Source of the DNA: Coptis chinensis
Lineage: Eukaryota; Streptophyta; Magnoliopsida; Ranunculales; Ranunculaceae
Length of the DNA stretch: 64,000 nt
Assembly (NCBI GenBank): GCA_015680905.1
Contig: CM027385.1
Location: 80,869,501 to 80,933,500 of the forward strand
Direction of reading: 5' to 3'
Part shown: piece after piece, positions 3,100-64,000 of the stretch
How the letters are laid out: the number at the start of each line of letters is the position of its first letter
How positions within the stretch are numbered: the stretch's first letter is position 1
Position numbers and translations under genes: made by a program
Notes under the pieces: model-generated
The model's database searches: none
What the model saw: only the letters and a program-made list of their open reading frames with translations
Told to the model about the DNA's origin: nothing

Positions 3100-6000
3100 T
3101 GTTTTGACTCCATACTACAAAGAAGATGTTCTCTACTCAGAGGAAGAACTTAACTTGGAAAATGAGGATGGAATATCAACTTTGTTTTACCTTCAGAAGA
3201 TATATCCTGGTACGTATTGACGTCCAAACTTGATTTATCCTTTTCCTTCTTTTTTCTGTAATCGGTATAAATTGTTTGTTCTCTACCATAAAAAAATTAG
3301 ATGAGTGGAGCAATTTTATAGAACGTACAAAAGATGATAATGACCCTAAAGAACAGGTGGATTTAGTTCGTCAGTGGGTATCTTACAGGGGGCAGACACT
3401 TTTTAGAACAGGTTTGGCTTTACAAAGCACTTTCAGCTCTTTTCTCTAACAATATCTGTACAATATGTTACTTATTGTATACATCATCTTACCGTAGTTT
3501 TTCTCTGTTTCAGTGCGAGGGATGATGTATTATAGGCAGGCACTAGAGCTTCAATGTTTCCTAGATATGGCTGAAGATCCTGGTACGCCACCATTCCCAC
3601 AGATTTATCTGCTAGCTCTTACATATATGTGTCTCTAACTTGAAGTCGAATAAATTTAACATATATTCTTCTGTATGACTTAATTGAGTAGAAAAAGTTT
3701 ACCTTTCTTTGTACTTTTAACAATGGATTAACCAAAGAGTATTCTTCTTCTCCTTTCTCTAGAAATTTTTGGTGGCTACCGTGGCCACCGTGGCCACCGT
3801 CCAGTTGATATAAATCATCGGGAAGAAATGCCTTTTGCAATCCGTTCTCAAGCCGTGGCTGATATGAAGTTCACCTACGTTGTTTCCTGTCAGGTCTATG
3901 GTGCCCAGAAGAAATCTAACGAAAAAAGAGATCAGAGTTGTTACCAAAACATTCTCAGTCTCATGTTAATGTATGCTACATAATTGTTAATTAATGTGCA
4001 TAAAATTTATGTATTTCTAGGTAACATAATGTAACCAGAGATTAGGTGCAATCCTGTTGTTTGACTCAAGATCATTCCACTTTCTCTTTCCTCGAAATTG
4101 GACAGGTATCCATCACTTCGTGTCGCTTACATAGATGAGAGAGAAGAGACTGTTGGTGGGAAATCTGAAAAGTTATACTACTCTGTTCTTGTTAAAGGAG
4201 GAGATAAGTTCGACGAGGTATGGCACTCGGAAAACCGTCAATGCAAGTTACTTGAGAAATATTTGGCTTATATCAAGATTTAGTTTGAGAAGTATTTGGC
4301 TTATTTAAAAGATTTGTTCGTTTGAACTCTGAAGTATTAGGCATATATCAAGATTTGTTTGGTATGTGTGTATTTCACTGTGATGGATTGGTTTTGAATT
4401 TCAGGAAGTCTACCGTATCAAGCTCCCTGGTCGTCCAACAGATATTGGTGAAGGGAAACCTGAAAATCAAAATCATGCCATTGTATTCACTCGTGGGGAA
4501 GCACTTCAGACCATAGACATGAATCAGGCATTATTCTATTTCATTCCTCAATTAGTCAACATATTTATGTATCTGTGTTATTAATTGTCCATTTGTCCTA
4601 TACTCTATTTTCAGGATAATTACATTGAAGAAGCTTTTAAAATGAGGAACGTTTTGGAGGAGCTTCTGAAATCTCATCGTGGTGATCGGAAACCCACCAT
4701 CTTGGGTCTGCGAGAGCATATTTTTACTGGAAGGCTAGTTTTAACATAATTGCAGCATCATTTAGTGGTTTCAAGAGTTTTGAGTTTGTATTGTAACTAA
4801 TTGAGTGTAAAACTGTGAATCAGTATATCTTTCAATCCTTAATATTATCTATTTGCTGATATAGTCCATTTTGGTTCTTTCAACAGTGTTTCATCACTTG
4901 CTTGGTTCATGTCTAATCAGGAAACGAGTTTCGTTACTATTGGCCAGCGGATATTAGCCAGTCCTCTTAGGTATATTTATCATTATTTTTTTCCAGGATA
5001 TGTAGGGACTGATTATTTCTATGTAACATATACTATATTGTTGGTGCTAAGTTCTAGCTTTTTATAGTTGGTAGATAAGTTTCACGCAGTGGAGAGTTAT
5101 TATTTTCGTGTTACCAGATTACTTCAAATTTATAGATGTAAAAGTTTGACTTTCCATTTTTAGTAATATTAGGTGTAATATTTACTTCCTAAAGTGGTAA
5201 GCTCCCGCAGGAAGACCTTTTTGTGTTTCTGATCAGATAAGAGCTTTATGTTTTCTGTCAAGCTTCAGAGTTTGAATAACATTAGTTTCTTAAAGAGCCT
5301 GTAAAATTGATTTTCCTATGTAGGATCTCCATATGTGATTCCCTGATTATTGTTTACTTCTATCTTGCAGAGTCCGATTTCATTATGGACATCCTGATGT
5401 CTTTGACAGAATCTTTCACATAACAAGGGGAGGCATTAGCAAAGCTTCAAAAATTATTAATTTAAGTGAAGATATATTTTCAGGTAGGTTAAGGTTTCTC
5501 TAAACTAGTATTGATTACCATTAAAAATCAGACGATTAATAGTGGAAACTTTACAGGGTTTAATTCAACACTGCGTGGGGGATATGTAACTCATCATGAG
5601 TATATGCAAGTGGGAAAGGGACGAGATGTGGGAATGAATCAAATTTCACAGTTCAGGCGAAGGTAGCAAATGGTAATGGAGAGCAGACACTTAGTCGTGA
5701 TGTCTATAGCTTGGGGCGCCGCTTTGACTTCTATAGAATGTTATCATTCTACTTTACCACAGTTGGTTTCTACTTTAGTAGCATGGTACACGCCGAATAC
5801 ACTTTCTTCTTAAGACTACAGTATTTTTTTTATTTCATAATTAGAATATTTAGAAGATGATTAGATCTGATACTTAGAAGTCTGTATTAGTAGGGTAATT
5901 GTAATGTTTCTCTGGTATTCTGGAATGCTACGCCTTCTACGTGGAAACATTCCTCATGCAGTCATGCTTTAACATTTTTGAGAAAATTTTGTTGTAAGCT

Positions 6001-8089
6001 TTATTTCAGCATCTACTATGTTTCAGGTTACGGTGCTTACTGTGTATGTATTCCTATATGGGCGTCTATATTTGGTTCTGAGTGGTCTAGAAAGGGCTGT
6101 TCTCGAGGATCCAAGTGTTCGCGATAGCAAGGCTCTTGAAGCGGCTCTGGCTACCCAGTCAGTCTTTCAGCTGGGCTTATTACTGGTCCTTCCCATGGTT
6201 ATGGAAATTGGACTAGAAAGAGGGTTCCGTACTGCCTTGGGTGAATTTATAATCATGCAGCTGCAACTGGCCTCTGTGTTCTTCACGTTCCAGCTTGGCA
6301 CAAAAGCACATTATTTTGGTAGGACAATATTGCATGGAGGTTCAAAATACAGAGCAACTGGTCGAGGATTTGTTGTGTTTCATGCAAAGTTCGCTGATAA
6401 TTATAGGCTTTACTCACGGAGTCATTTCGTCAAGGGATTGGAACTCATGATTCTATTAATTGTGTACCAAGTTTATGGAAACGCTTACCGCAGTTCAAAT
6501 CTGTACTTATTTGTCACATTCTCCATGTGGTTCTTGGTTGCTTCCTGGTTGTTTGCCCCTTTTGTTTTTAATCCTTCCGGCTTTGAGTGGCAAAAGACTG
6601 TGGACGACTGGACAGATTGGAAAAGGTGGATGGGTAACCGCGGTGGTATTGGTATCCAACCTGATAGAAGTTGGGAGTCCTGGTGGGATTCAGAACAGGA
6701 ACACCTCAAATATACAGATATCAGGGGTCGTGTGCTAGAAATTATCCTGGCCTGTCGCTTCTTGATCTATCAATACGGGATTGTGTACCACCTTAACATA
6801 GCCCACCATGTCAAAAGTATACTGGTATGGTTGCGTTTCATCAGTTATGCTACTCTAAATCATATGTATAATATTTTACTGGACCTCATCACATTTTACT
6901 GTTTATTTTTCAGGTTTATGGACTTTCTTGGCTTGTCATGGCAACTGTGCTGCTGGTTCTTAAGGTAATGACATTCACAACCGTGAACTGTGTACTATGT
7001 TAAATGGGTATCCACAATTAAACATGAACTGTGGACTATATTAAAACTTAAGAGGGCATCCACTTTCAAGGACTTAATGTGTCAGTTATCGTGTTGGAGC
7101 ACGAGTCAGAACATGTCAAAATAATTGAATTTGTGTATCTAGAAATCAGCATGTCTGACTCATCATATAAGTCAGAAACAGAGACACTGTTGTGCCTTTG
7201 TTGCATTTCCTTTGGAAAATGTTCTGGTTAGAGTTGGCCTTTGTCTTATATATGCGCTTACGTGCAGGGAATCACACAGCCAACCCTATCTATCCCTTTT
7301 GTCATACTACTGGTGTAAAGATATATGTATTTACAACCATTACTTAGTTTTTTGCTTCTAAAATGTTGGTTCCTCCCACTTAAGTCTGATGCCATGGAAT
7401 TATTTTCTCTCTTTCCATTCAGATGGTTTCAATGGGTAGACGAAGATTTGGCACCGACTTCCAGCTAATGTTTAGAATCCTCAAAGGACTTCTATTTCTA
7501 GGCTTCATATCTGTCATGACCGTCTTATTTGTAGTTTGTGGCCTCACTATCTCAGACGTGTTTGCAGCGATACTTTGTTTCATGCCCACAGGGTGGGCCT
7601 TTATTCTCGTAAGTGATATTCTTCACCTAATTAATTCTAAGATAGGGACGTAAATGGTATTCACTATTTAGGTTTTGAAATGGCTGGTCCATGCAATCCT
7701 ATATTTTTAAAATTATGTGGAACATGACAAATGGTTCAAGTAGTAGAATGTCCAGTTCTGTGTTTGCAAAGTTATTTTTCCATCATTCTTGTTTACACTT
7801 CAAACTCGTTCATCAGTATTGATTCTTTTTCTTTTTTCTTCTCTTAAAGATTGGGCAAGCATGCAGATCCTTGCTGAAGTATATAGGATTCTGGGAATCG
7901 ATAAAAGAACTAGCACGAGCCTATGAGTATGTGATGGGGCTCCTAATCTTCATGCCTATAGTCATACTGTCATGGTTCCCCTTTGTATCAGAGTTTCAAA
8001 CTCGCTTGCTCTTCAACCAAGCATTCAGTAGAGGTCTACAGATCTCAATGATTCTTGCTGGGAAGAATCAGAGGGCAGCATCCACCTGA
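3100..8089 (+). CDS. Callose synthase (glucan synthase-like), C-terminal 14 exons, one frameshift
   Basis: Callose synthases are large plasma-membrane proteins that make beta-1,3-glucan from UDP-glucose for cell plates, plasmodesmata, sieve plates and wounds. Exons: 3100-3209, 3301-3411, 3514-3582, 3763-3970, 4106-4217, 4405-4527, 4615-4733, 4887-4970, 5371-5483, 5557-5785, 6027-6824, 6914-6964, 7423-7608, 7850-8089. Together they give about 850 residues: the end of the large cytosolic glucan synthase domain (WVSYRGQTL, GKPENQNHA, TILGLREHIFTGS, HYGHPDVFDR) and then the C-terminal membrane helices. The family is about 1,900 residues, so over half is missing upstream, where a copia element lies. 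The frame breaks at 5651-5656, where family members read QFEAKVANGNGEQ: one base is missing, and the frame is perfect on both sides. The introns after exons 6 and 7 start with GC. The sequence resembles the CALS7/CALS5 branch, but I would not fix the paralogue. It could be a pseudogene or a real gene with a sequencing error. Confidence 0.9.
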
Positions 8090-8490: not shown

Positions 8491-9180
8491 TATTAGCTAA
8501 AATCTGAATATAGTGATGAGAAGCCTGAGACAAATTTCTGCCACTGGTAAATGGTAATTGGTTGGTCTAAAGTCTAAACTGAGATTATTTAAAAGTAGCT
8601 AAAAGTTTAAAGGCACATTATGGCCAAGTCAAAATGTATCCAGCATATAGAAATGAAAAACATATGAGAGTAACATTAAAATTTAAAAGTGTTTCGAGTA
8701 CAAGTAATTGTGTACTTCATCTTTAACTGATTTATAAAGAAAAGTGACTGAAACAGAATTGTGATCTAGCTAGTGATGGACACAATTATACTGGAGATAT
8801 TATTGTCCAACTCTTGGATTCTACAGGTAAAAAAACTTGTATGTATAGTCAATTTTATGATAATCAGTGTCAAGCCATGTTATACAAAACATTTTTATAG
8901 ACAAGGAAACATATGGGCCCTAAGACATACACATTACATCTTTTTGATATGTGGATCTCAAACCCAAGCCCAATACGAAATGACTACGTCACAACCACGT
9001 AAGCCAATCTCGTCATTCCAAATCCAATCAACGGTCACAATCAAATCCGAAATAGTCAACACAAATCTCGATACTTTTGACTTTTAACTAACTTAACTAT
9101 ATAGTCAAAAGCTAACTCAACCGTAGTTAAACTTTAACCACTTTCTCTCTCTAAATTCTCAACTGAAAAAAGAGTACACA
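8491..9180. other. Intergenic region, probable bHLH promoter
   Basis: About 0.7 kb of AT-rich sequence with no coding signal. It separates the callose synthase 3' end from the leader of the bHLH gene and probably contains the promoter of that gene. I could not pick one TATA box. Confidence 0.4.
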
Positions 9181-9707
9181 TCTCTTTTTCACTACTTTGC
9201 AAATCTTACCTTCCATTGTTATAGACAACAAATCTTCAAATCCATTAAAAAGCTTTCATTTCTAGTTTGTGTTGAGCTCATTTTTGGATTCTACATGTAA
9301 AGATCTTCTAAAATATACAAGGTTTGTCTTCTAAATCACACTTTTCAATAGTGCCAACTGTTTATGAGCTGATTTTAGTCTCTGGGGCTGTCCAAGTTTT
9401 GATCTTTGATGGTTTTATGTTGATTTAGAAGTGTTTTATGAGACCCCTTTTGGTAAAATTTTCATTTATATGATTTTTACTTCATTTTTTTTTAGTTTAG
9501 TATTATTTGTTGTATAGTTGTAGCTCAATTTGAAATTTAGTGACTTGGGTTTTGTTTTGCTTTGTTATTGGAGCTCATTTGTTATATACTATTTGTTTCA
9601 GATATTGAGTTGAAGAAAAATCTATCAACATGCCTTGGACATCATTTGTTAATTACAACAGGAAGTGTATTTGTTGTGTCGTGTTTTTCCGCGTGATACT
9701 GTAAAGA

Positions 9708-9802
9708 CTGTAAGTTTAGTATCCAAGAACTTTGTCAATATATATATATTCTTTGGTTGTGTTTTTTAGCTTATTGAGATTGTTTTTTAAATGTACTGCT
9801 GC
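9708..9802 (+). other. Possible additional leader intron
   Basis: GTAAGTTT follows AAGACT near 9709, and TGCTGCAG ends near 9803, just before the uORF exon. These are good plant splice sites, which suggests a short intron in the bHLH 5' leader upstream of the conserved uORF. No transcript evidence is available. Confidence 0.4.
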
Positions 9803-9886
9803 AGGTGAATTTCTCTGGTTGAGTGACGGGGTTCTTTGCATTTGTGATTTTTTTTTTCGATTTCTACTGTTGTTGAAAAAGTTAGA

Positions 9887-11131
9887 ATGTACATTGCGAT
9901 CAATTTGAAGAGATACCAAAAAGTGAAGGAGGGAGGAAATATTACGATGAACGTGAGAATTATTGCTTATTACCAATTGTTGCAAATTTGTCAGGTAATT
10001 ATTTTTTCTTGTATCATTTTGTGTATTTTATAGCCTTGAATGAATTTGAATTATGCAGTAGTACAATAATATGATGTTCTATTTATTTAGTTTTAGAAGC
10101 ATCATTTGAGTTTATTCTTTTCTAAGATTAAAGCTATCTGTATTGTGGTGGAAGACTACTGTTGTATTTTCCCCGTAAGGTCTGGGCTTTGGAACAGTAA
10201 TTCAATTAATGGATTTATATGGGTACTGAAGTTAGAGATTTAACTATTTAAGGTATGATATACAACTAGTAAGCCTAGCGTAAGAACTGAGAACTCACTC
10301 TGGTTGTAGATTGTTGGATAAATCTAATTGGACTTTGTATTTCCCACTAAACTTAGGTCAACCAAATTCGTTAAACGGATGAATCAAAATCTTATAAGGA
10401 GTAACTAGTTGTGAACGAAAGTAGTTAGGTGGATCTTGATAAATGCCTTGAGCTTTGCGTAGGCACATAAAATATTAAAAGATAAAATTATTTGAGGACT
10501 TGGAGATTTAGTTTTGACCATACCTTACATCTATGAATGATAAAGCAAGATTGTCACTAGTCTAGAAAACTGTCCACTTGTATTTGGTACAGTAAAAAAT
10601 CAGCACAACTTGAAATAGGAAGAAGGTAAAACAACAATAGTTTGCATTTGACAGTAATGCTGTACCTAGAAGTTGAAGAGGAAGTAGGATTTTGGGGTTT
10701 TGAAGAAGCAACAATAGTTTTGGAGATATTGATTTTGTCATTTGGATACTTGGATTATTTTTCCCACTTTTGGTTTAAGATTAGAAGTGTTTCTATTGAT
10801 AAACTTGAGTTGTTTTTACTAACGAAAAACTGGATAATTATGGGAATAGAAGTCTTCCAGATCCCTATTCATGGATATTTTAGTATACCCTTTCTGGAGC
10901 CACCTAGTGAGAGTGTGAGACATGTTTATGTGATTATTATTTTATTTATTTATTTTTAATTTTAGTTTTTTTGTTCTTATGAGTGAGTTGTTGGGTTTTT
11001 GTATTTTGCAATACCTTAGTTTTGTGATTTTATCATCTTCATGTAGGTTCATTTTAACCGCTACTTATTATATCTTTCCCTTGATATGTCAGGCCAAGTA
11101 TTTCCGTCTGTTACTTAAGCCTGTCACGTAG
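9887..11131 (+). CDS. Conserved spliced upstream ORF of the SAC51-type bHLH gene (48 aa)
   Basis: The first exon, 9887-9994, encodes 36 codons from ATG (MYIAINLKRYQK at the start). It ends NVRIIAYYQLLQICQ at a GT donor. The second exon, 11093-11131, follows a TGTCAG acceptor and encodes AKYFRLLLKPVT plus TAG. The joined C-terminus, QICQAKYFRLLLKPVT, matches from memory the conserved peptide uORF of SAC51 and its homologues (CQAEYFRHLLKPVT type). In Arabidopsis this uORF represses translation of the bHLH frame and thermospermine relieves that repression. A TGA lies in frame shortly upstream, so the ATG at 9887 is the first usable start. The intron is 1,098 bp. The bHLH frame starts 272 bases after the uORF stop. 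Regulation by thermospermine here is inferred from the family. Confidence 0.9.
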
Positions 11132-11180
11132 TTTGTATATCGAAAAGCTCTGCATCTCAAGAACTGGTCTTCCTTGTATC

Positions 11181-11223
11181 ACAATTCACAAATAAGAAGT
11201 ATTACAATTCACAAATAAGAAGT
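11181..11223 (+). repeat. Two 23-bp direct repeats in the bHLH leader
   Basis: ACAATTCACAAATAAGAAGT is repeated with a 23-bp period between the conserved uORF stop and the main start codon. It contributes no ATG. Confidence 0.75.
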
Positions 11224-11244
11224 AAAAGTAATCAGAAATTGCGT

Positions 11245-11298
11245 ATGGCATCTTAAATTAGTGAAAAGGGCTTCCCTGCTGCCACGGTAATGGCATAA
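11245..11298 (+). promoter_or_regulatory. Two minimal uORFs before the bHLH start
   Basis: ATG GCA TCT TAA lies at 11245-11256 and ATG GCA TAA at 11290-11298. Both sit between the conserved uORF and the bHLH ATG at 11404. A ribosome resuming scanning would meet them first. Multiple uORFs are usual in SAC51-family leaders. Their effect here is not known. Confidence 0.6.
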
Positions 11299-11403
11299 AT
11301 CTCCCCTTTTACCTCCGGAACTTTAGATCACATCCTCTTCAGACCAAACAACTACTTTGTCAAAACAGCTTTACTCTGAATCTTAAGTGATATTCCTACA
11401 CTC

Positions 11404-12129
11404 ATGAGTGACAAACAATTTTTCCGAGAAAAGGCAGTGTCCCCTACTCGGTATCAAGTAGGTGCCTCTTATATGAATTATGGCCCTGTTGAACATGACC
11501 TAGGTCCTATCCTACCACTGGCTCCAGACTTGAGGCCCTTTCATGGGGTTGAATTCCAACCCTCAGAAGTATGTCCAAAGAACTTCATTATCTTTGATCA
11601 GACTAATAACAGAAGTCGCATCATGTACCACCCTGCTCTGACCCCCCAGAAGTTCAATTCCCCTGGCATTGATATGCATGCAGCATTTCTCGAAGATAAT
11701 GACACAAGGAAAAATACATGTACCGAGAACGCTGAATCTTCCTCTTTTTTGAAAGAGGATTCAAAAGATATCGATGCTTTAATGAGTTTGGAAGAAGATG
11801 AACTCGAAGAGGATGATGAGGTGGTTAGCACTGCACGGACTTTTGGCAGCTATGAATGTGGCTCCCCTGACTCATGCTCCAATTTTTGTTCCAAATCCCG
11901 CAAGCCGAGGTTTTCTTCGACTGAGAAGTCATGCTCTGGATGCTGCAGCAGCAGTGACGACAGTGAAAAGCAGCGACGGAGGATGAAGAAAATGGTTAAG
12001 GCACTGCGTTCAATTGTTCCCGGTGCCGACCAGATGAATACTGCCACTGTTATTGATGAAGCTGTTACTTACCTCAAGTCCTTAAAGGTTGAAGTGAAGA
12101 AACATGGGCTTGGGAATTTCAGTAATTGA
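11404..12129 (+). CDS. SACL: SAC51-family bHLH transcription factor (SACL type)
   Basis: A single-exon frame of 241 residues. An acidic run (SLEEDELEEDDEVV) lies near residues 127-141, followed by a Ser/Cys-rich stretch. A C-terminal bHLH lies near residues 187-232: EKQRRRMKKMVKALRSIVPG, then ATVIDEAVTYLKSLKVEV. The basic region lacks the usual His-Glu-Arg of E-box binders, as in the SAC51 family of atypical bHLH proteins. In Arabidopsis SAC51 and SACL1-3 control xylem differentiation and stem growth. They act downstream of thermospermine and partner with LHW-type bHLHs in SACL3 work. The leader carries the family's conserved uORF, which supports the assignment more firmly than the bHLH alone. 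The short length fits the SACL3/bHLH144 branch better than the longer SAC51 itself. The protein is probably nuclear. The main control appears to be translational through the uORFs. Confidence 0.88.
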   Translation: MSDKQFFREKAVSPTRYQVGASYMNYGPVEHDLGPILPLAPDLRPFHGVEFQPSEVCPKNFIIFDQTNNRSRIMYHPALTPQKFNSPGIDMHAAFLEDNDTRKNTCTENAESSSFLKEDSKDIDALMSLEEDELEEDDEVVSTARTFGSYECGSPDSCSNFCSKSRKPRFSSTEKSCSGCCSSSDDSEKQRRRMKKMVKALRSIVPGADQMNTATVIDEAVTYLKSLKVEVKKHGLGNFSN

Positions 12130-14404: not shown

Positions 14405-20246
<5,842 letters not shown>

Positions 20247-23300: not shown

Positions 23301-23335
23301 TGTGTTATTCAATATAATCCAAGAGATAGCGAGTG

Positions 23336-24030
23336 AAGTGATTTTGTTATTTGACAGAAGAGTTTTATTTGTTTTTTTTATATATAAATAAAAGTTTGGG
23401 TTTTTTAATTGTGAGTTGGTTTAATGTTTTTTGTTTTTTTTAATTGTTTGTAACGAATGGGGTAAGTATTACCAAAGAGTTTAATAAGGAGTTAGGTTAT
23501 TGGAAATTGTGAATGATTTTGTTATTTGGTAGAGGAGTTTTATTAGTTTTTTTATATATAGATAAAAGTTTATATTTTTTAATTGTGAGTTGGTTTAGTA
23601 CTTTTTGTTTTTTTAATTGTTTGTAACGAGTGGGGTAAGTATTGCCAAAGAGTTTAATAAGGAGTTGGGTTCTCGGGGATTGTGAGTGATTTTGTTATTT
23701 GGCATATGAGTTTTATTTGTTTTTTTAAATATAGATAAAAGTTTGGATTTTTTAATTGTGAGTTGGTTTAGTGTTTTGTTTTTTTTTTTATTGTTTGTAA
23801 CGAGTGGGGTAAGTATTGTCAAATAATTTAATAAGGAGTTGGGTTATCGGGGATTGTGAGTGATTTTGTTATTTGACAGAAGAGTTTTATTTGTTTTTTT
23901 AGATATAGATAAAAGTTTGGGGTTTGTAATTGTGAGTTGGTTTAGTGTTTTTTGTTTTTTTTTAATTGTTTGTAACGAGTGGGGTAAGTATTGTCAAAGA
24001 GTTTAATATAAGGAATTGGGTTCTAAAGTA
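23336..24030. repeat. Tandem array of about 174-bp units, four copies
   Basis: TGATTTTGTTATTTG recurs at 23339, 23514, 23687 and 23861, so the spacing is 173-175 bp. Each unit also carries AATTGTGAGTTGGTTTA and GTAACGAGTGGGGTAAGTAT in the same order. The unit length is close to one nucleosome repeat, as in many plant satellites. The 69-residue minus-strand frame here is a by-product of the repeat. Confidence 0.9.
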
Positions 24031-25105: not shown

Positions 25106-25999
25106 TGTCACAGCCCGAATTTCTAAACAATAACAAAGTGAATATTTGAAATATAATTATCTCAAACATCACTAGGTTCACTTGTTTAAAACCCGCACTA
25201 TGGCCGGAGTAATACTACACATACAAACCCTAATATCCATGTCATAAAAGAAACAACTTAAATAACAATAATCCCAACAATTTATCCGCAATCTCTTTAT
25301 TAAGATAACATCCTTCCAAATAAAACATCAAAACAAACTCTCCAAATAAAATTCATCACTACCATGTCCTTATGCCATGAAAAATAAACTACGTTATTAC
25401 ATTCTTCCAACCAAGAAAATCAAACCTAAAAGAAACTAACGGACCGCCCGTGCATCTAATCCCAATCACACGCCCAGGGTTCCATCGCTTTCCACCTATG
25501 TTCCTAAGAACACACCCACGCTTACAAAACAAAGCAAACATGGGTCAAAAATTTGAATTTCTTTGGTATGAGTAGACTAAACACATATAAACATTTTAAA
25601 CTTTTCTTATCCAACTAACACTTTAAATTCTATCATAACCTAATCATTCTCGGCTTGGAAGACAAGTAGTTCCGCTCATCTCAAACGCATAGTTTCTTCC
25701 CAAGCAAAACTTCCATTTTATTAACTTCCATCTCATTAACTTATTCTAATAACTCCTTTTTAATATCTAAATAATTGAATTACAACTTACCGATGTCCGT
25801 CGGCCAGATAAGGGTAGGACCCGGCCTCCACTTAAAATATTATTAAGTCCTACCCTCCTGCAAAAAAGAAAGTTAGAACTTGTATATATAATGGATGTAG
25901 ATATTCTATATGTATTCAAAGGTAAACCCAAGCACGCGCGTATAAACAAATCCATTTCTCTTATCAATTAATCAATTACTTTATCTTATACACCCACCC

Positions 26000-26320
26000 T
26001 TTAGTACCTTAGGTCATTCCCGCCACATTCAAGGAATACCTATCAAATCACTAACGGGCCATTCATGGCACATTCAATGAATGCCCTGGGTCATTCCTGC
26101 CACATTCAAGGAATGCCCAATCCTACATTCCCGTACACTCAAGGAATTCAACTAACCCGCAAGGCGAATACCTTAGTTCCTCTTTAGGGCAGTCCAAACT
26201 ATCTGGTCATTCATGGCACATTCAATGAATGCCTGGGTCATTCATGGCACATTCAATGAATACCCTTATATAACGCTAACGGGTCATTTATGGCACATTC
26301 AATAAATGCCCACCTAACAT
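26000..26320. repeat. Subrepeats within the left LTR (also near 30.1-30.4 kb)
   Basis: The unit GGTCATTCATGGCACATTCA, followed by ATGAATGCC, recurs about six times. It contains the near-palindrome CATTCAATGAATG. The same array is present in the right LTR. Confidence 0.75.
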
Positions 26321-28559
26321 ATGACTTCATCAGTCATAAACTCAATTCCAAAACTTGAGGCGTTGAGAGATCTAAAAAGGTTGCGGTAACTTTATTTACG
26401 CATTATTGAACTTTATTTTATGTATCATTTCAAAGAACGAATGAGTATCTTGATTCCTGTATTTTTGATTTACGCGTTATTAATTTCAGGGATGTCTTAG
26501 TGTCATAACGTTGCATATCATAAAATACTGCAAAATCACATATAGTTAATACACATACACACGTATATATAGAGGTCTTAGCCTAAAGCCAAGCATGCTA
26601 ATAGTCCTAGACTTATCCTATTAAACCGAATCATAATTTTAGGAAAAAGTCAAACTTTCGGGTCAACTGGTCAAAGTCAACCCTGGTCAAAGTCAAAGTC
26701 AAAGTCAGAGTCCACTCTGGTCAACAGTCAATATTGGTCAACCTAACCTAAACTCCAAAAACCCAAAAGCCCAAAGCACTAGGGCCCGTAGTCTAACTTA
26801 AGCCCAAAAACTAAAAGTCCAAAAGTAAAAAGAAATTAGCCCACGATTTTGGCCCAAGCCCAAAATCGTTTTTGGCTACTGTTCATCTCCTTCACCAAAC
26901 AAAACTTCCACCACCACCGACCATCACAACGGCCACCACCGGCCATCCATAAGTAAAACAAACCCAGCGGTTTGGTTCAGGAAGAAAAACCCTAGCTACC
27001 TATATCAACAATTCACCATTCTATGATACTGAGAAAATCCAAATCGACACCATTGATGCTCCACAGAGCTCCAATCGTGTCCTCTCCAGCACCCATACAA
27101 CCATTTACGAAACCTCACAACAAAACAATCAAACCCGACAACAGTTAAGCAACAACCAACATTTCGAATAGTTTACTGGAGGATGGGCGTGCCGCCATTA
27201 ATGGCTGCGTGGAGCTTTCCACAGCACTCACCACGAATCCACTCTCAATCCCTCGCGACAATCAACACTCATCTATCACCAACACATCCTAACAGTTCCA
27301 ACATCACCACAAATAAAAATAAAGAAATACTTCAAACACAAAACAGGAAGTACGGTTTGGGCTTTGGTGCTGATGGCGACGCCATCAACCACCGCTGTCC
27401 CGACAGTTTAAACTCTCAACTTGTCAGAGTAATAGAGTCGGCACCATTAACAGAGTCGTTACATACTGTTACTGTGACATTCCTATAAATCAGTCGACAA
27501 CATTAAAGGTTTTACACTGTACAGTATATCGTATTGGCTAAATAAAACATTATGTGAACAGTACCTCGTATCACAAAATCGATGGTAAACAAAAACAAAA
27601 CGTGAAATATCCACTCACAGTTCTAAACCGAACAGCTCCTACGAATTTCTCCGAGTCCGAGCCGTCGTGCTCCACCCTCCAGAAATCCAGCTTTCATCTC
27701 TGCCTCCATTTTTTTTTATTTTATTCTCTTCAAAACCCTATTATCTAGAACAGTGTGTTTATATACTTGGGTCCGAAACCCAAGCCCAACACCGACTCGG
27801 GCCCAAAACCAAGCCTTCCAATATCCCGAAGTCCAATCCAACGAATTTTTTAAAATAAACAATTAAATTAATTAATTAAATAGAAAAATACGATATAAAA
27901 ACGGGTGTTATAATATACACACACCTTAAAAGGATCTCGGCCCCGAGATTCAAGGTAGAGTGTAGATTAACCAAACAAACAAGACGTCAAACGAGTAAAA
28001 TAAGACATAATGTATACGCAAGTATACACACCTTAAAAGGAATACACATATACAATATCATATAGATAGACATACTAATATTCAAATCACATACTTTGAA
28101 AGTGTCTATATAATGATTGAACTGAAAAAGAAATACGTATATACGCTAGCATACACAACTCAAAAGAATAAACGTAATTAGTTTATTCAATTACCAACAC
28201 TTAATTAAAATCATTCTTTCACAGGTTTAGCAAAACCCATATCTTCAAGTTAAATCATACTAAGAAAAAGCAATGTAGTTCCTCTCACACCGAGGCAGTT
28301 AGTTCCACTCTTAGTATTCCCAACAAATCCAAAGCGTTTAAAAATAAATAAATAAATATATATATATATAACAATTTTCTTTTCAACGATCTTCCTTGTC
28401 AAAACTTTTCGTTTATAAAAAACTCATATGTTTCATCCACCACCTTAGTGTTTACACATATATCAACATTTCTCTCAATGTCTCACAAACACCACATGTT
28501 TGAAAATAAAAATATAAAACGTATAGACTGATTCATATTATCAACGGCCTATACTATGT

Positions 28560-28830: not shown

Positions 28831-31800
28831 AATATCAAATATTTCAAATCCAACCTTTATCAAAAGGGTTTCTTTATTCCTTGGGGTAATTCCAATTTAC
28901 TCCAATATGAAATTTTAAAAATAACAATTTATTCTTTAGCCACTACTTACTTAAAAATAGAAAACTCAGTTAGGAAAACAACACTATAACATGCAAAAAT
29001 TCGATTATAAATTTCATAAGAAATTAACCGTTAAAACAAGCATTTTATTTTCCTAATCTTATCCCAACATTCCACTATAAAAGTATACACAAAACAACAA
29101 GCCAAACCAAATACCACAAAGAAACACTCCTACTACCCATTCACCACAATCCGAGGATCACCTAGACCTTCACTATCTAGGCTAACCTGGCTCCGATACC
29201 AAAATGTCACAGCCCGAATTTCTAAACAATAACAAAGTGAATATTTGAAATATAATTATCTCAAACATCACTAGGTTCACTTGTTTAAAAACCCAGACTA
29301 TGACGGAGAATACTACACATACAAACCCTAATATCCATGTCATAAAAGAAACAACTTAAATAACAATAATCCCAACAATTTATCCGCAATCTCTTTATTA
29401 AGATAACATCCTTCCAAATAAAACATCAAAACAAACTCTCCAAATAAAATTCATCACTACCATGTCCTTATGCCATGAAAAATAAACTACGTTATTACAT
29501 TCTTCCAACCAAGAAAATCAAACCTAAAAGAAACTAACGGACCGCTCGGGGCAGTAATCTAATAATCACACCCGGTTCCATCGCCTTCCACCTATGTTCT
29601 AAGAACACACCCACGCTGCCAAAACAAAGCAACATGGGTCAAAGAATTTGAATTTCTTTGGTATGAGTAGAACTAAACACATATAAACATTTTAAACTTT
29701 TCTTATCCAACTAACACTTTAAATTCTATCATAACCTAATCATTCTCGACTTGAAGACAAGTAGTTCCATCATCTCAAAGCGGCATAGTTTCTTCCCAAG
29801 CAAAACTTCCATTTTATTAACTTCCATCTCATTAACTTATTCTAATAACTCCTTTTTAATATCTAAATAATTGAATTACAACTTACCGATGTCGCCACAC
29901 AGATAAGGGTAGGACTGGCCCCTCAAGACAAAATATTATTAAGTCCTACCCTCCCATAAAAGAAAGTTAGAACTTGTATATATAAGCGGATGTAGATATT
30001 TTATATGTATTCAAAGGTAAACCCAAGCACGCTACAGATAAACAAATCCATTTCTCTTATCAATTAATCAATTACTTTTATCTTATACACCCACCCTTTA
30101 GTACCTTAGGTCATTCCGCATACATTCAAGGAATACCTATCAAATCACTAACGGGCCATTCATGGCACATTCAATGAATGCCCCGGGTCATTCCTCGCCA
30201 CATTCAAGGAATGCCCAATCCTACATTCCCATTACACTCAAGGAATTCAACTAACCCATTCAAGGCTAATACCTTAGTTCCTCTTTAGGGCAGTCCAAAC
30301 TATCTGGTCATTCATGGCACATTCAATGAATGCCTGGGTCATTCATGGCACATTCAATGAATACCCTTATATAACGCTAACGGGTCATTTATGGCACATT
30401 CAATAAATGCCCACCTAACATATACTTCATCGGGCCATAAACTCAATTCCAAAACTTGAGGCGTTGAGAGATCTAAAAGGTTCGCGGTAACTTTATTTAC
30501 GATTATTGAACTTTATTTTATGTATCATTTCAAAGAACTAATGAGTATCTTGATTCTCGTATTTTTGATTTCTGGCGTTATTAATTGGGGGGATGTCTTA
30601 ATGTCATAACGTTGATATCATAAAATAATTGCAAAATCACATATAGTTAATACACATACACACGTATATATATAGAGGTCTTAGCCTAAAGCCAAGCATG
30701 CTAATAGTCCTAGACTTATCCTATTAAACCGAATCATAATTTTAGGAAAAAGTCAAACTTTGGTCAATCGGGTCAAAGTCAACCCCGGGTCAAAGTCAAA
30801 GTCAAAGTCGAGTCCACTCGTCAATAAATCAATATTGGTCAACCTAACCTAAACTCCAAAACCCAAAAGCCCAAAGCACTAGGGCCCGTAGTCTAACTTA
30901 AGCCCAAAAACTAAAAGTCCAAAAGTAAAAAGAAATTAGCCCACGATTTTGGCCCAAGCCCAAAATCGTTTTTGGCTACTGTTCATCTCCTTCACCAAAC
31001 AAAACTTCCACCACCACCGACCATCACAACGGCCACCACCGGCCATCCATAAGTAAAACAAACCCAATGGGTTTGGTTCAGAAGAAAAACCCTAGCTACC
31101 TATATCAACAATTCACCATTCTATGATACTGAGAAAATCCAAATCGACACCATTGATGCTCCACAGAGCTCCAATCGTGTCCTCTCCAGCACCCATACAA
31201 CCATTTACGAAACCTCACAACAAAACAATCAAACCCGACAACAGTTAAGCAACAACCAACATTTCGAATAGTTTACTGGAGGATGGGCGTGCCGCCATTA
31301 ATGGCTGCGTGGAGCTTTCCACAGCACTCACCACGAATCCACTCTCAATCCCTCGCGACAATCAACACTCATCTATCACCAACACATCCTAACGCCCAAC
31401 ATCACCACAAATAAAAATAAAGAAATACTTCAAACACAAAACAGGAAGTACGGTTTGGCTTTTTGCCGCGACGGGCGACGCCATCAACATCAACCACCGT
31501 CTCCGACAGCTTTAAACTCTCAACTTGTCGAGTAATAGAGTCGGCACCATTACCGTGAGTCGTTACATCGCATATCGCGGACATTCCTATAAATCGGCCG
31601 ACAACATTAAAGGTTTTATTAATCGCAGACAAGATATCAGATTGGCTAAATAAAACATTATGTGAAATAAAGACCTCTGTATCACAAAATCGATGGTAAA
31701 CAAAAACAAAACGCGGAAATATCCACTCACGCTTTAAACCTAACAGCCTCCTACTTAATTTCTCCGAGTCCGAGCCGCCGTGGCTCCACCCTCCGTAAAT

Positions 31801-32032
31801 CGGCTTTTTCATCTCGCTTCCATTTTTTTATTTTATTCTCTTCTTCAAAACCCTATTATCTGTAATGTTTATATCTTTGGTCCTAAAACCCAAGCCCAAC
31901 ACCGACTTCTGCCCAAAACCCAAGTCCCCACGTGATCCCGAGTCCGTCAATCCAACGAATTTTTAAAATAAACAATTAAATTAATTAATTAAATGAAAAT
32001 ACGTGATAAAACACGCGGGGTGTTATACCACG

Positions 32033-39837: not shown

Positions 39838-40012
39838 AGAACATATGGGGGTAGGCTAACACCTGAGGAGCAAAAGGTTTTGTTTCAGATGACCTTACGT
39901 GGAGTCAAGCCAAAACAGGTTCTTAATGTCATCAAAGAGCGAGATCCAAATAATTCTTCTAAGTTGCAACACATATACAATGCACGTGCCAAATTAATAA
40001 ATGTTGAAAAGA
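39838..40012 (+). pseudogene. FAR1/MULE transposase-like segment
   Basis: In the same frame as the preceding fragment, the sequence LTPEEQKVLFQMTLRGVKPK, then QVLNVIKERDPNNSS and IYNARAKL, resembles the segment before the transposase core of plant MULE/FAR1-related proteins (KP-IL-TLKE...N-YNAR pattern). Only about 55 residues are present. The match is by pattern from memory. Confidence 0.5.
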
Positions 40013-40021
40013 ATGGAAGCT

Positions 40022-40729
40022 GTCCCCAACTCTCCTTCTTTCCAACATGTACCAGCACCCCAACACGATCACCCCTGGTGTTGATGGCCAAGGACAACCT
40101 ATTGACCCTCGCAAGATCCAGGAATACTTTGAAGACTTTTACGAGGATATCTATGAGGAGCTCCACAAGTTTGGCGAGATTGAGAGTCTCAACATTTGCA
40201 ACAACCTCGCTGATCACATGGTTGGCAATGTCTATGTTCAGTTCACTGAGGAAGACCAGGCTGCTGCTGCTTTGAAAGCCTTGCAGGGCCATTTCTATTC
40301 TGGCAGCCCCATTATTGCTGATTTCTCCCCCGTTACCGACTTCCGTGAGGCTATGTGCCGACAATTTGAGGAGAACAACTGCAACCGAGGTGGTTACTAT
40401 AATTTTATGCACGTCAAACAAATTGGCAGGGACTTGAGGAAAAAACTTTATGGATCCTACCACCGTCGCTCTAGGGGGAGTCGTAGTCGAAGCAGGAGTA
40501 TGAGCCCACACCGCAGAAGACACTCAGAGGGGCTTGGGACTATCGAGATCGAGGGGATTACTATGGAAATTGCCGAAGAAGTGCTGACAGGCATGGTAGA
40601 TATGACAGCGATGGTGGGAGAAGACGACATGGGAGCCCAAGGCACACCGGAAGTTCTGCAAAGGAGGGGAGTGAGGAACGGAGGGCGAAGATTGAAGAGT
40701 GGAACAAGGAAAGGGAGGGGAGGTACTGA
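40022..40729 (+). pseudogene. U2AF small subunit (U2AF35) fragment
   Basis: U2AF35 reads the AG of 3' splice sites. The frame begins [20 protein letters not shown], as in plant U2AF35 after its first zinc finger. It runs through the UHM domain ([57 protein letters not shown]) and the second CCCH finger ([19 protein letters not shown]) into the RS tail. In that finger one Cys position is Tyr. The frame shifts near 40530. The original frame then ends in [13 protein letters not shown] and TGA at 40727-40729. The N-terminal third is missing, so this is a 5'-truncated copy. Plant U2AF35 coding regions are normally intronless, so the lack of introns does not prove retroposition. Confidence 0.88.
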
Positions 40730-42130
40730 TTCAGAGAAGTCATAGAACATGTTACATTAACAAACTGAATAAAGATGGCACGCACTATGTACGTAAGTTG
40801 GCACAGGCCAACATGCAGAATGCGAACCTCCTAGCTAGGCAGACTGGAAAACTAATCTTCACATTTGTAGTACCCTTCAATCAAAAAAATCCTACTTCCA
40901 GAACATGACTGTGGACTCTTTGGCTCTCTGCTCTAATCCATAACATGACTCTTACCTCTTTAGCATGCCTGCAAGTTCCAGATATCCGAACTTGAACCCA
41001 TGGAATGTGCCCATCTCCTCTAAAGCCCATGTGTTATTATTTTATGACATGGTTATGAATTTCATTTCAACCTTCATACCAATCCTACTACCATAATACA
41101 AAATACTGTTTTGGTCAGAATTTTGATGGCTGAAAAATGGGAATATGTTAATTAACACTGCCATATTACTTGGAGAAGTTCCAAAGATCCCTTACAAAGA
41201 TCGAGGACTCGAGGGGTTCCAAGGTTGTGCCACAGATCCTTCGTATGTGTATTACACACAAACTGATTCTACGCAAATCAGAACTACACTATATGTCAAA
41301 TGGGAATGAGGCTGCAATAGATTTGAATTGCTGGAGCCTCATTATCGTATTTTCAGCATATTACCTTAAAACACTAACCGCCAAACTCTTAATGGATTAG
41401 TTAATTGATATGTATTAGTTATTGGATATGGAGTTCATGAATATGGATTAGTTAATGGATCAATGACAAAATTCTTATGCTACACAACTGCTGTCATATT
41501 AAAATATATATAAATACATCAATATTCGGAAGCATTAAACAAAAACCAAACAAATCATAAGAAAACACATCAATATTCACGAAACACACACCATCATTGA
41601 AAGGTTTACGAATTCCTTCCACTAAAGGTTCGTTTTTTTTCATGGACTGAAGGTTTTTCCCTGGTACACCATCCTAGAAAGGACTCCAAATTCTTTCCAC
41701 TGAATGTTAGTAATTTTTCCCCCTGGTAATAATAAGAAGGAAAAATTCTACAGCAGATATACAAATTTGAGGTTTTAGACGTCAACCGCAAAGAAATCAT
41801 TACTAAACGTGAAGAGCTGCATGAAGCAAGTACTAGATAAAAACAACTTCATCAATATATTGAACACTTGAGAAAAGAAAATGCCTATTTATAGGCAATA
41901 AATGAAGCATTGGTTATAGGAGGACCAAATTGGGAAATGGACTACCTAAGCATTTCAAATAATTTATCAGAATTGGATGAGAATTAGCGTATTGTTAGAT
42001 CTAACAAAATTTATTTTTTAAGTTATTTTTTAGCTGAATTTTCTATTGGATGAGGATTAGCATAGTATTAGATCCATCAAATTTTTTGTTTATCCATTAT
42101 GCCAATTTTTTAGTTTATCTATATTCTAAC
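40730..42130. other. Intergenic part of the mosaic
   Basis: 1.4 kb, AT-rich, with no convincing gene. Confidence 0.5.
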
Positions 42131-43895: not shown

Positions 43896-46539
43896 ATGAT
43901 GTCTTTGACATGTAGAAACTTTGATATAAGTAGAACTAGATTGGATTTATTTGCTTGTGGCTGTACTTCTTATTCTAATAAGAATTATGCAAGAAAGTGT
44001 GGAGGAAGGAAATTGATGTGTAATAATCCATTGAGTGATGTTGGAAGATGTCGTGCATTTTCGGCGGCGAAGACACCTGAGGCTGTATTGAATGGTATTG
44101 TCTTCACACTTTGATTTTTTTAATGTTTGATGAAAGTTGTTTACCAGATTTTGTATTGTTCATTTGGTGTGATGATAAACTTGTATTTTTTTTCAGTTGT
44201 TGATAAAGATCCAGAGTCAGTAATAAGCACTATTACAAAGTCAACAACTAGCCCCAGTTCAATAACATCTTTGTTGGAAGTGGTTGCTGATGACCTCCAA
44301 ACTTTGAATAACAATCTCCAGTCAGTGAGTGTTCTGTTTTATAATTTGATATCACGTATGGTCAAATTTTAGTTGATATCACCGTTTGCAATTCGCAATT
44401 CCACACTGTCTTTTAATGAAAACCGGTGGTGGAAGTAGTGTGTAGCTTTGTATTTATGCATTTTCTGTCAGGCAATCAGTCGAAAAGAAAAGAATAAATT
44501 ATTCACACCCACGCTTGAATGAGACCTGATATGAGAGTTCTTCAATCTTTTTTGTTTTACTGAATTTACCCAATATGGTTTCCTTGATTGTCCTGTTCCA
44601 CCATGGGCCCATTTGAACACGAATCATTAGCATATTCCATTGTTGATTTGCTATTGCAAGCACTCCTAATATCTTCCCCCAATTTATTATTGGAAATGAT
44701 GCTATGCAGATTGTAGGGGCAGAAAACCCAGTTTTAATATCTGCAGCTGAACAAATTTTTAGTGCTGGTGGAAAGAGGCTGCGGCCAGCTTTAGTATTCC
44801 TTGTGTCAAGAGCCACTGCAGAAATTGCACATTTGAAGTGAGTTTGAAAGTTGTAATTTTCTCTTGACAAGTATTAGAAGCGCGTGATTTTAGATAAGAT
44901 ACGGTGTTAACTATGTGTTCTATTCTAATTGCAGGGAACTTACCCCAAAACATCGGCGCCTAGCAGAGATCATTGAGATGATCCATACAGCAAGTCTAAT
45001 ACATGATGATGTACTGGATGACAGCAGCATCCGAAGGGGTAGGTCTTACAACTTATGAAACTCTTCTGCATGATCTCTCAAGTTGATTGATTATTTGATT
45101 TACAAATATGGTAAAGCTTTGACTACAAAGTACACCAAAAAGGAGTATAACCAGTGCCAGGGAAAATCTTCTCTAAAACCTACTGACAAGACACATCGGA
45201 TAGATAGATGTATTTCTTAGTATCTTTGATGAAGCAATTGTACTTACACAACTTCGGATGCCCATCCAAAGATTTTGGAGATTTTATTGCTCCAGGAAAA
45301 GTATATCCTGCTAGCATTGTCAGTGCGTTTATCCCCAACTAGTTGGGACCTCAACATTACACCTACTACTCACCTTATATCTGAGCCACATCTTTATATG
45401 AGGAACATGTGATCAAACCTTTTGTTCGTAAATTCATGTCATGTTTAGTTATCTCAGCTTTCGACCCAACCCGCCCTCCTTCTTGCTTGTGCTGATACTG
45501 GTCCTTGTGTACGTTCTTAAGTCATCCTGGTAGATTTCAAATTTGATTATTCTTCTATTTGAGTTACTCCTAGACCACTTGGTTGTGCCAGTTTCATTCC
45601 TCCATCTCAAAGTCCTCAGTTCTGCTACAACCATTTTACCCCTGCTAGAAGTCTATAGCTTACTGATTTTCAACTTCTGGTAGAAATTTTATTCTTATTG
45701 CGCAATGCCTCATTGTAAGTTCGTCAATACCTGACATGAATGCAATTTGTCTCTCAGGAAAGGAGACCATTCACCAAATATATGGTACAAGGGTGGCAAT
45801 TCTTGCAGGAGATTTCATGTTTGCTCAATCATCATGGTATCTTGCGAATCTTGAAAACCTTGAAGTCATAAAGCTAATCAGCCAGGTATGCATCTCAAAC
45901 TGCTTCGGTTTCTTGGTGTCAGACAATTTGACCAACATTTACGTTGACAAGTTTTGTTTCCTTCTACATGTACTCGGTGACCATTTGCAGGTCATTAAGG
46001 ATTTCGCAAGTGGTGAAATAAAACAAGCATCAAGCCTTTTTGATTGTGAAGTTACACTTGAGGAGTATCTGATGAAAAGCTACTATAAAACAGCATCCTT
46101 AATTGCCGCAAGCACCAGAGGTGCTGCTATATTTAGTGGAATGGATGTCAGTGTTTGTGAACAGATGTACCAATTCGGAAAGAACCTTGGATTATCATTC
46201 CAAGTAGTTGATGACATTTTGGATTTCACACAATCAGAAGAACAGCTGGGGAAGCCAGCTGGCACTGACTTGCAAAAAGGAAATTTAACTGCTCCTGTCA
46301 TTTTTGCTTTAGAAAATGAGCCAAGGCTGCGAGATATCATTGACACTGAGTTCAGTGAAGATGGTTCCTTCAACGAAGCTGTCAAATTAATTATCAAGTG
46401 TGGGGGGATTTCTAGAGCACAAGATTTAGCAAAAGAAAAAGCTGATCTAGCATTGCTGAACCTTCAGTGCCTTCCTAAGAGTGAGTTCAAATCTACACTT
46501 GAAGGGATGGTGAAGTATAATCTCGAAAGAATTGAATAG
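43896..46539 (+). CDS. SPS: Solanesyl diphosphate synthase, plastid type
   Basis: This trans-long-chain prenyl diphosphate synthase adds isopentenyl units to make the C45 solanesyl tail of plastoquinone-9. Exons: 43896-44094, 44197-44324, 44710-44837, 44935-45038, 45758-45885, 45991-46539. All introns are GT-AG and in phase, giving 411 residues, the usual length. Residues 1 to about 70 are Ser/Arg/Cys-rich with few acidic residues, consistent with a plastid transit peptide. The catalytic core carries [10 protein letters not shown], the first Asp-rich motif DDVLD (176-180) and the second DDILD (303-307) followed by [17 protein letters not shown]. The first residues upstream of DDVLD are small/medium (TASLIH), typical of long-chain enzymes. 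The frame is intact and the sequence is close to Arabidopsis SPS1/SPS2. A geranyl diphosphate synthase label, used in older annotations, is less likely. Confidence 0.95.
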
Positions 46540-47549: not shown

Positions 47550-47625
47550 ACTCTTAAAACACATAATTTTGTCCAAATCAGAAATCTAGGGTTTACCAAT
47601 TTTTCTGAATTTTGAGCAATTGACG

Positions 47626-48864
47626 ATGTCACCACCACCAAACCCACAATTCACTTCACAATTTCTAAGCAACGTTCTCTGCCAACGTGGCCCATCATCA
47701 CTCCCATACACAGAAGATGCAAAATGGCTTATAAGACAACACCTAGTTTCATTAACAGAAACACACCCATCACTACAACCGAAAACAGCTACATACAATC
47801 ATAACGATGGCACAACGGTAAATTTACTTCAAGTTGATGGTACTATTCCAATGGTTTATCAGTCTGTTACTTATAATATACCTATTATTATTTGGTTAAT
47901 GGAGACTTATCCTCGTTCTTCGCCTTGTGTTTATGTTGCCCCGACTAGGGATATGATTATTAAACGACCACATCCACATGTTAATCCTTCTGGGATTGTT
48001 TCCATACCGTATTTGCATAATTGGGTATACCCAAGCTCCAATTTAGTTGATATGGTTAGGAATTTAAGTCATTTGTTTGGTCGCGAACCGCCTTTGTATA
48101 CTAGGCAATCGCAATCGCAATCGCAGTTGAGGCCGAATGAAAATAGCTTAGCTACCACGAACAGTAGTGGTTTGGAAGTGGGCGTGTCGAATTTGGGGAA
48201 TTCTAGGCCGACTAGTATTCCGCCGAGGGCTTATTCGTCTTTGTCTTCACCTTATGGAGGTGGTGGAGGTAGGTTTCCGGCTTCTCCGCAAAGGCAGAAT
48301 ACGGATGATCCGAATGAGGTTTATAGGAAGAATGCGATTAATAAGTTGGTGGATAGTTTACATGGAGATATTACGACGTTGAGAAAGAATAGAGAGGTGG
48401 AAATGGAAGGTTTGATTAGTGCGCAGACGGTTTTGAGACAACGAGAGGAGGTGTTGGCAAAGGGGTTGAGAGAGATGGTAGGGGAGAAGGAAGGTTTGGA
48501 GCAGCAACTGCAGATGGTGTTGATGAATACGGATATTTTGGAAGGGTGGTTGAGGGATAATGAAGGGAAGATGGGGATGAAGACTGGGAATGTGGATACT
48601 GATGAGGCTTTTGTGCCATGTGATGCTCTTTCGAAACAGATGTTAGAGTCTACTGCATCGGATTTGGCTATTGAAGATGCAATTTATTCTCTGGATAAAG
48701 CTGCGCAGGAAGGTTCTATACCTGTTGATCAATATTTGAAGAACATTAGGTCTCTATCGAGGGAACAGTTCTTTCACCGGGCTACTGCTGCAAAGGTTAG
48801 AGCTGCTCAAATGCAAGCTCAGGTTGTTAGCATGGCAGCTAGAGCGCCACAGTATGCAATGTGA
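47626..48864 (+). CDS. ELC: ELC/VPS23 (TSG101) ubiquitin receptor of ESCRT-I
   Basis: TSG101/VPS23 is the ESCRT-I subunit that binds ubiquitinated cargo on endosomes and passes it towards multivesicular bodies. The frame is one exon of 412 residues from ATG 47626. The frame stays open six bases further upstream but has no ATG there. The UEV domain (about residues 15-160) includes [40 protein letters not shown] and [18 protein letters not shown]. It lacks the catalytic Cys of true E2 enzymes, as expected. A Ser/Pro/Gln linker follows, then a coiled coil (about 235-315), then the C-terminal steadiness box ([40 protein letters not shown]). The lack of introns matches Arabidopsis ELC. Intact. Neighbouring genes are unrelated. 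Confidence 0.95.
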
Positions 48865-61712: not shown

Positions 61713-63503
<1,791 letters not shown>

Positions 63504-64000
63504 GGTTCAGTTTTACGCCAAGTTACAACTTTCTGCTTCTTACTACGCCAAGTTATAACTTTTTGTTTCTTACTACGCCAAGTTACAAGATTTCCACCGA
63601 GAAAAGTGAAATATCCTGATATAGAACGTCTATCAGTTTTATCACCAGCCCAATCTGCATCTGTGTATCCAACAATGTCCAATACATTATACTTTCCAAA
63701 TAGTAAATCGTTGCCGGTGCCTTCTTCAAATACTTCAAGATACGAGAGACTGCAACCATATGTTCTTCACTAGGACAATGTATAAACTGACTAATAACCA
63801 CACTCACAGCATAAGCAATATCAGGTCTAGTATGAGAGAGATAAATTAACCTTCCTACAAGACGATGATACCTTCTTTTATCAGTAGGAACTTAATCAGG
63901 ATGAATGGCGAGTCCATGATTCATCTCAATGGGTGTCTCCATTGGTTTGCAATCTAATATTCCTGTTTCAGCAAGCAAATCTAGGACATACTTCTTCTGT
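63504..64000 (-). mobile_element. Ty1/copia fossil, RT end and RNase H part
   Basis: On the minus strand the sequence encodes the copia RNase H signature [11 protein letters not shown] with RRSISGYF, preceded by the end of the reverse transcriptase ([13 protein letters not shown]). A short TWRSKKQKV segment is locally repeated three times near 63535-63600. The element is truncated at the border with the CBL copy and runs off the right edge of the window. It is a broken fossil. Confidence 0.85.

Follow-up and report, generated by a model that had tools for sequence, protein, structure and literature searches.

A probable uORF encoded in two exons

The locus described here raises the question of whether a conserved peptide uORF of the SAC51 family can be encoded in two separate exons, and whether such a uORF precedes a gene of that family and would regulate its translation. 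The DNA under study (64,000 nucleotides from Coptis chinensis, hereafter the window) had been annotated initially from its letters alone, and a 36-codon exon was proposed to join, over an intron of 1,098 bp, to a short C-terminal exon.

The join was found exactly as proposed. The first part of the uORF (candidate HG15.3 type, see below) occupies positions 9887-9994 on the forward strand, as do all parts of the gene described in the following, and its 36 codons translate as MYIAINLKRYQKVKEGGNITMNVRIIAYYQLLQICQ. The second part, at 11093-11131, forms the beginning of exon 4 of the leader and adds codons 37-48 followed by the stop (AKYFRLLLKPVT-stop), bringing the spliced uORF to a total of 48 aa. 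The intervening GT-AG intron (leader intron 3, 9995-11092; 39% T) interrupts the frame in phase 0, the exon and intron borders reading CAG/GTAATT...TATGTCAG/GCC. When the donor following position 9994 was joined to 13 acceptors, the AKYFRLLLKPVT end was given by the acceptor at 11093 only. When sites were scored with an approximate plant splice matrix, entered by hand, the donor at 9995 ranked first among the 158 GT dinucleotides, and the acceptor at 11093 first among the 139 AG dinucleotides, of the region 9101-11403.

The 48-aa frame contains both an outer ATG, at 9887, and an inner in-frame ATG (9947-9949, with A at -3). The latter opens an internal uORF of 28 aa, which would be the counterpart of uORF6 of Arabidopsis SAC51. 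Translation from 9887 with intron 3 retained also gives a peptide of 48 aa, with a different C-terminus. Genomic ORF scans miss uORFs of this kind, whose halves are here separated by 1.1 kb. The initial annotation went further and held the peptide to be invisible unless the two exons are joined. The split frame is present as proposed; however, an unspliced ORF of 50 codons starting with ATG (10979-11131) carries the same C-terminus, so that this part of the claim has to be relaxed.

The main ORF and its probable family

The main ORF (11404-12129) is uninterrupted within exon 4 and encodes a protein of 241 aa. Its top Pfam match, over residues 184-230, is bHLH_SAC51 (PF23173; E 6.5e-6), with a score of 26.5 bits, below the curated cutoff of 28.5. 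The general HLH model gave 17 bits, below its cutoff of 20.7. When the protein was compared by sequence with solved structures, allowing E values up to 1, the only matches were MYC2 (E 0.00078) and CLOCK (E 0.11). We regard the main ORF as a good candidate for a SAC51-type bHLH protein, though its score remains under the Pfam cutoff.

A tblastn search of the window for a second copy of the gene returned the gene's own pieces only, all other matches having E values of at least 0.84. The main ORF was also used to scan viral contigs (70 pattern matches) and GTDB genome contigs (149 pattern matches), and no relative was confirmed in either set, as expected for a plant gene.

Predicted leader organisation and a candidate companion uORF

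The predicted layout of the gene comprises four exons and three leader introns, with the main ORF entirely in exon 4. Exons 1 to 3 were picked by eye from the scored splice sites, and the 5' end at 9110 was assumed. Probable leader exon 1 (9110-9321) ends at the donor AAG/GTTTGT at 9322 (rank 5 of 158). Probable leader exon 2 (9602-9709) lies between the acceptor TTTCAG/ATA at 9602 (rank 5 of 139) and the donor ACT/GTAAGT at 9710 (rank 8 of 158). Probable leader exon 3 (9805-9994) follows the acceptor CTGCAG/GTG at 9805 (rank 3 of 139) and ends at the top-ranking donor described above. Equally high-scoring sites are left unused by this model, namely the donors at 9805, 10253 and 10626 (ranks 2 to 4) and the acceptor at 11047 (rank 4). 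For a further intron downstream of the uORF stop and ahead of the main ORF, inspection by eye gave a single candidate pair, donor 11287 with acceptor 11327 or 11343; it would delimit 40-56 nt and was rejected as too short.

The spliced leader model contains six upstream ATGs. A bare ATG-stop in exon 1 is followed by a 24-aa uORF, by the 48-aa uORF and by the inner start of the 28-aa form, and exon 4 adds two tiny uORFs of 3 and 2 aa. The 24-aa uORF (9630-9704, MPWTSFVNYNRKCICCVVFFRVIL-stop) ends in CVVFFRVIL, in which 8 of the nine residues are hydrophobic (residue set AVLIMFWC, chosen by us).

As described by Hayden and Jorgensen (2007, PMC2075485), the HG15.1 uORFs are 18-27 aa long with 8 of the 9 C-terminal residues hydrophobic, while those of HG15.3 are 43-54 aa long and have 13 of their 14 C-terminal residues fully conserved between Arabidopsis and rice. 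Both the length and the hydrophobic end of the 24-aa uORF agree with HG15.1, making it the candidate for the first conserved uORF, and the 48-aa uORF falls within the HG15.3 length range. The initial annotation was silent on the 24-aa uORF, which therefore provides a partly independent check. Direct observations on the window are the reading frames, the splice signals, the family that the main ORF matches best and the layout with two uORFs.

Comparison with known SAC51-family leaders

The Arabidopsis SAC51 gene described by Kakehi et al. (2015, PMC4308196) consists of four exons separated by three leader introns, and its coding region lies entirely in exon 4; its uORFs measure 20, 16, 48, 53 and 6 aa, the first and the fourth being conserved. 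As far as it can be predicted, the leader in the window allows the same exon plan as that of Arabidopsis SAC51 (At5g64340), whose uORF1 belongs to HG15.1 and whose uORF4/uORF6 belong to HG15.3. The two candidate conserved uORFs are predicted to stand in the same order, and here too the longer of them contains a second in-frame ATG. The lengths differ, being 48 aa in the window against 53 aa in Arabidopsis for the longer uORF and 24 against 20 aa for the shorter one, and the unconserved 16- and 48-aa uORFs of Arabidopsis SAC51 are without counterparts in our leader model.

A second difference concerns the position of the long uORF. In the window this uORF extends beyond the last leader intron and is predicted to stop in exon 4, after the final junction of the model, whereas the uORFs of Arabidopsis SAC51 are placed, as printed by Ishitsuka et al. 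(2019, PMC6504692), in exons 2 and 3. The position of the uORF relative to the last leader intron is the description of one member and no defining feature of HG15.3. In the account of Kakehi et al. (PMC4308196), an exon junction downstream of uORF4 is invoked for the decay of Arabidopsis SAC51 mRNA; given where the uORF of the window stops, this junction-dependent route should be absent.

An intron in the uORF region may have a parallel in rice. Hayden and Jorgensen (PMC2075485, Table 3) list two starred rice HG15 uORFs, of LOC_Os01g43680 and LOC_Os03g39432, whose coordinates span 1,065 and 225 bp, respectively. Both spans exceed the 165 bp needed for 54 codons and a stop, and the other starred rice entries (7 of 7) fit the peptide lengths of their groups. 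A likely explanation of these spans is an intron that interrupts or separates the conserved uORFs of rice HG15; alternatively, the coordinates could cover several uORFs. The likeness to the window would consist in a possible intron in the uORF region, the same codon position not being implied. An intron inside the uORF, unlike the arrangement printed for Arabidopsis, may then occur in rice and is not necessarily new. Text searches of the accessible literature returned no match to nine peptide fragments, the published alignments being in figures, and nothing on introns inside uORFs.

With respect to paralogy, the gene is perhaps SACL3-like. SACL3/bHLH144 of Arabidopsis (At1g29950) is adjacent by locus number to At1g29960, listed as one of six Arabidopsis Imp homologs (PMC5594102), and the window contains an S26-type peptidase exon (51263-51511; Peptidase_S26, E 5.9e-14) 39 kb downstream of the main ORF. 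The 83 aa tested from this exon correspond to signal peptidase I by NCBIfam, the term "IMP-like" being our own reading. This neighbour hints at SACL3 as the paralogue and is no proof. Arabidopsis SACL3 is without an internal uORF start. The gene of the window has one, as do the SACL3 leaders of soybean and rice that Ishitsuka et al. (PMC6504692) describe as responsive.

Taken together, the bHLH_SAC51 top match (2 bits under the cutoff), the 48-aa length, the inner ATG, the companion uORF and the possible four-exon layout support the proposal of a conserved SAC51-family uORF. Two elements of that proposal, namely the likeness of the C-terminus to the family peptide and the drift of the N-terminal half, are presumptive. 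In conclusion, the window very probably holds a gene of the SAC51 (bHLH142-145) family with the translational switch of the family in its leader, and the split uORF together with the downstream gene is most likely a further member of the known SAC51-uORF kind.

Expected mode of action

We infer the ribosome stall, the thermospermine response and the role in xylem from published work on relatives. Splicing of the three leader introns would yield an mRNA carrying the 24-aa uORF and then the 48-aa uORF with its second in-frame start. By analogy, ribosomes translating the 48-aa peptide, or the 28-aa version begun at the inner start, would be held at or near the stop by the C-terminal sequence, and this hold would keep the output of the main ORF low. 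Thermospermine would act on the ribosome and relieve the hold, more SAC51-type protein would be made, and the formation of xylem, the water-conducting tissue, would be restrained.

Published results agree with several of these steps. The conserved uORF is reported to lower translation of the main ORF and thermospermine to lift this effect (PMC6504692, PMC12436307, PMC4308196), and suppressor mutations in RPL10, RPL4 and RACK1 implicate the ribosome (PMC6504692). In every leader that Ishitsuka et al. report as thermospermine-responsive, the outer and the inner uORF start are both present (PMC6504692); the leader in the window has both, and a response to thermospermine is therefore predicted. 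Other results described in the same paper fit less simply and count against a simple peptide switch: the response is kept in the sac51-d construct, which has a stop in uORF4, and after loss of either start singly; in wheat-germ extract, moreover, translation was lowered by the leader whether or not its uORF starts were present, and thermospermine had no effect (PMC6504692).

An extension of this scheme would have splicing put the arrest peptide together, with the intron itself a part of the switch; this appears unlikely to us. If true, the C-terminal arrest sequence would be encoded, from the start at 9887, only by mRNA spliced at 9994/11093. If it is true that no junction follows the stop, the mRNA would escape the decay proposed for Arabidopsis SAC51 and would be regulated at translation alone. 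A stop in the last exon, if general in this branch, would separate the translational block from nonsense-mediated decay; in Arabidopsis the two are confounded.

Alternative explanations

The sharing of one C-terminus by the split uORF and the contiguous ORF could mean that the functional uORF is contiguous: a transcript left unspliced, or one started within the intron, would use the 50 codons at 10979-11131, which end in the same ICQAKYFRLLLKPVT. The frame is open from the ATG at 10979 to the stop common to both, and the last 15 residues are in common. In addition, the residues preceding the acceptor (ATYYIFPLICQ) resemble those preceding the donor (IAYYQLLQICQ) in the same frame, with 5 of 11 residues and 18 of 33 bases alike. 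This residue likeness is reached by 3 of the 692 CAG sites of the window, two of which are the exon end itself and the acceptor, a figure computed after the likeness had been noticed; the base count is reached by 9 of the 692.

The sequence at 10979-11092 is nevertheless intron-like in composition, with 48% T compared to 29% in the 36-codon exon, and splicing at the two top-ranked sites of the region would remove it. The contiguous ORF is also without an internal ATG. When 5,000 points were drawn at random from intron 3, 520 of them had at least 38 open codons upstream, so that the openness of the contiguous frame is weak evidence. We therefore take the split form as the real one and consider use of the contiguous ORF very unlikely.

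A uORF of the split form could also be real while the switch resides in a riboswitch-like structure of the leader RNA and not in the nascent peptide. A thermospermine riboswitch is left open by Ishitsuka et al., in whose wheat-germ assays the leader effect was independent of the uORF starts and heating of the RNA raised translation (PMC6504692). Folding of the leader, by contrast, gave no extra stability over shuffled sequences (z -0.42, 60 shuffles), and the same holds for the uORF (z +0.54, 200 shuffles) and for its second half with the following sequence (z -0.19, 200 shuffles). Rfam gave no match at gathering score within the window, and the Ka/Ks values of 0.37 and 0.16 reported for HG15.3 by Hayden and Jorgensen (PMC2075485) argue against a purely structural role. 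A tRNA search of the window found none. We judge an RNA switch to be very unlikely as well; it overlaps with the favoured explanation on the identity of the gene, and the likelihoods expressed here for the different readings therefore need not add up to certainty.

To return to the SAC51-type leader with a split peptide uORF, its features were compared with 20,000 dinucleotide-shuffled versions of the spliced leader. An HG15.1-type uORF alone (18-27 aa, with 8 or more hydrophobic residues among the last 9) occurred in 243 shuffles. An ORF of 43-54 aa occurred in 5,978, and in 2,662 when an internal Met was included, so that the length of the uORF proves nothing on its own. The pair in the observed order, an HG15.1-type uORF followed by one of 43-54 aa, was obtained in 27 shuffles, and in 13 with the internal Met. 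That the leader frames are chance ORFs under no selection, and the family resemblance of the peptide spurious, is very unlikely. The long ORF is common in shuffles and the peptide resemblance is presumptive, but a pair with the published lengths and the hydrophobic end is rare, and it precedes a SAC51-type main ORF, in a leader compatible with the exon plan of the family.

Other features of the window

Upstream of the gene and on the same strand, positions 5982-6965 cover part of a gene for callose (1,3-beta-glucan) synthase (Glucan_synthase, E 7.1e-53); three shorter frames up to 8504, possible later exons of it, gave no Pfam match. Several repeats are present downstream. An inverted repeat of about 1.85 kb (14714-16556 and 61713-63515; 91% identity) has one 29-residue protein stretch common to both copies, and in the first copy this stretch matches Pfam EF-hand_5 (E 6.3e-7), presumably as the end of a calcineurin B-like gene. 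A direct repeat of about 2.8 kb (25106-27912 and 29205-32027) shows 92% identity, and the two ORFs tested from it gave no Pfam match. A tandem array with units of about 176 bp, 88-92% alike, occupies 23333-24024. On the reverse strand, frames at 63422-63891 resemble by eye the polymerase ends of Copia-type retrotransposons, the two frames tested being without a Pfam match.

The window also contains a gene for an RRM protein (40008-40742), which resembles the U2AF small subunit, and a polyprenyl synthase (45667-46536), nearest to solanesyl diphosphate synthase with 339 bits, below the cutoff of 383. Finally, a gene for a UEV/Vps23 core protein, which we assume to be ELCH-like, lies at 47590-48861.
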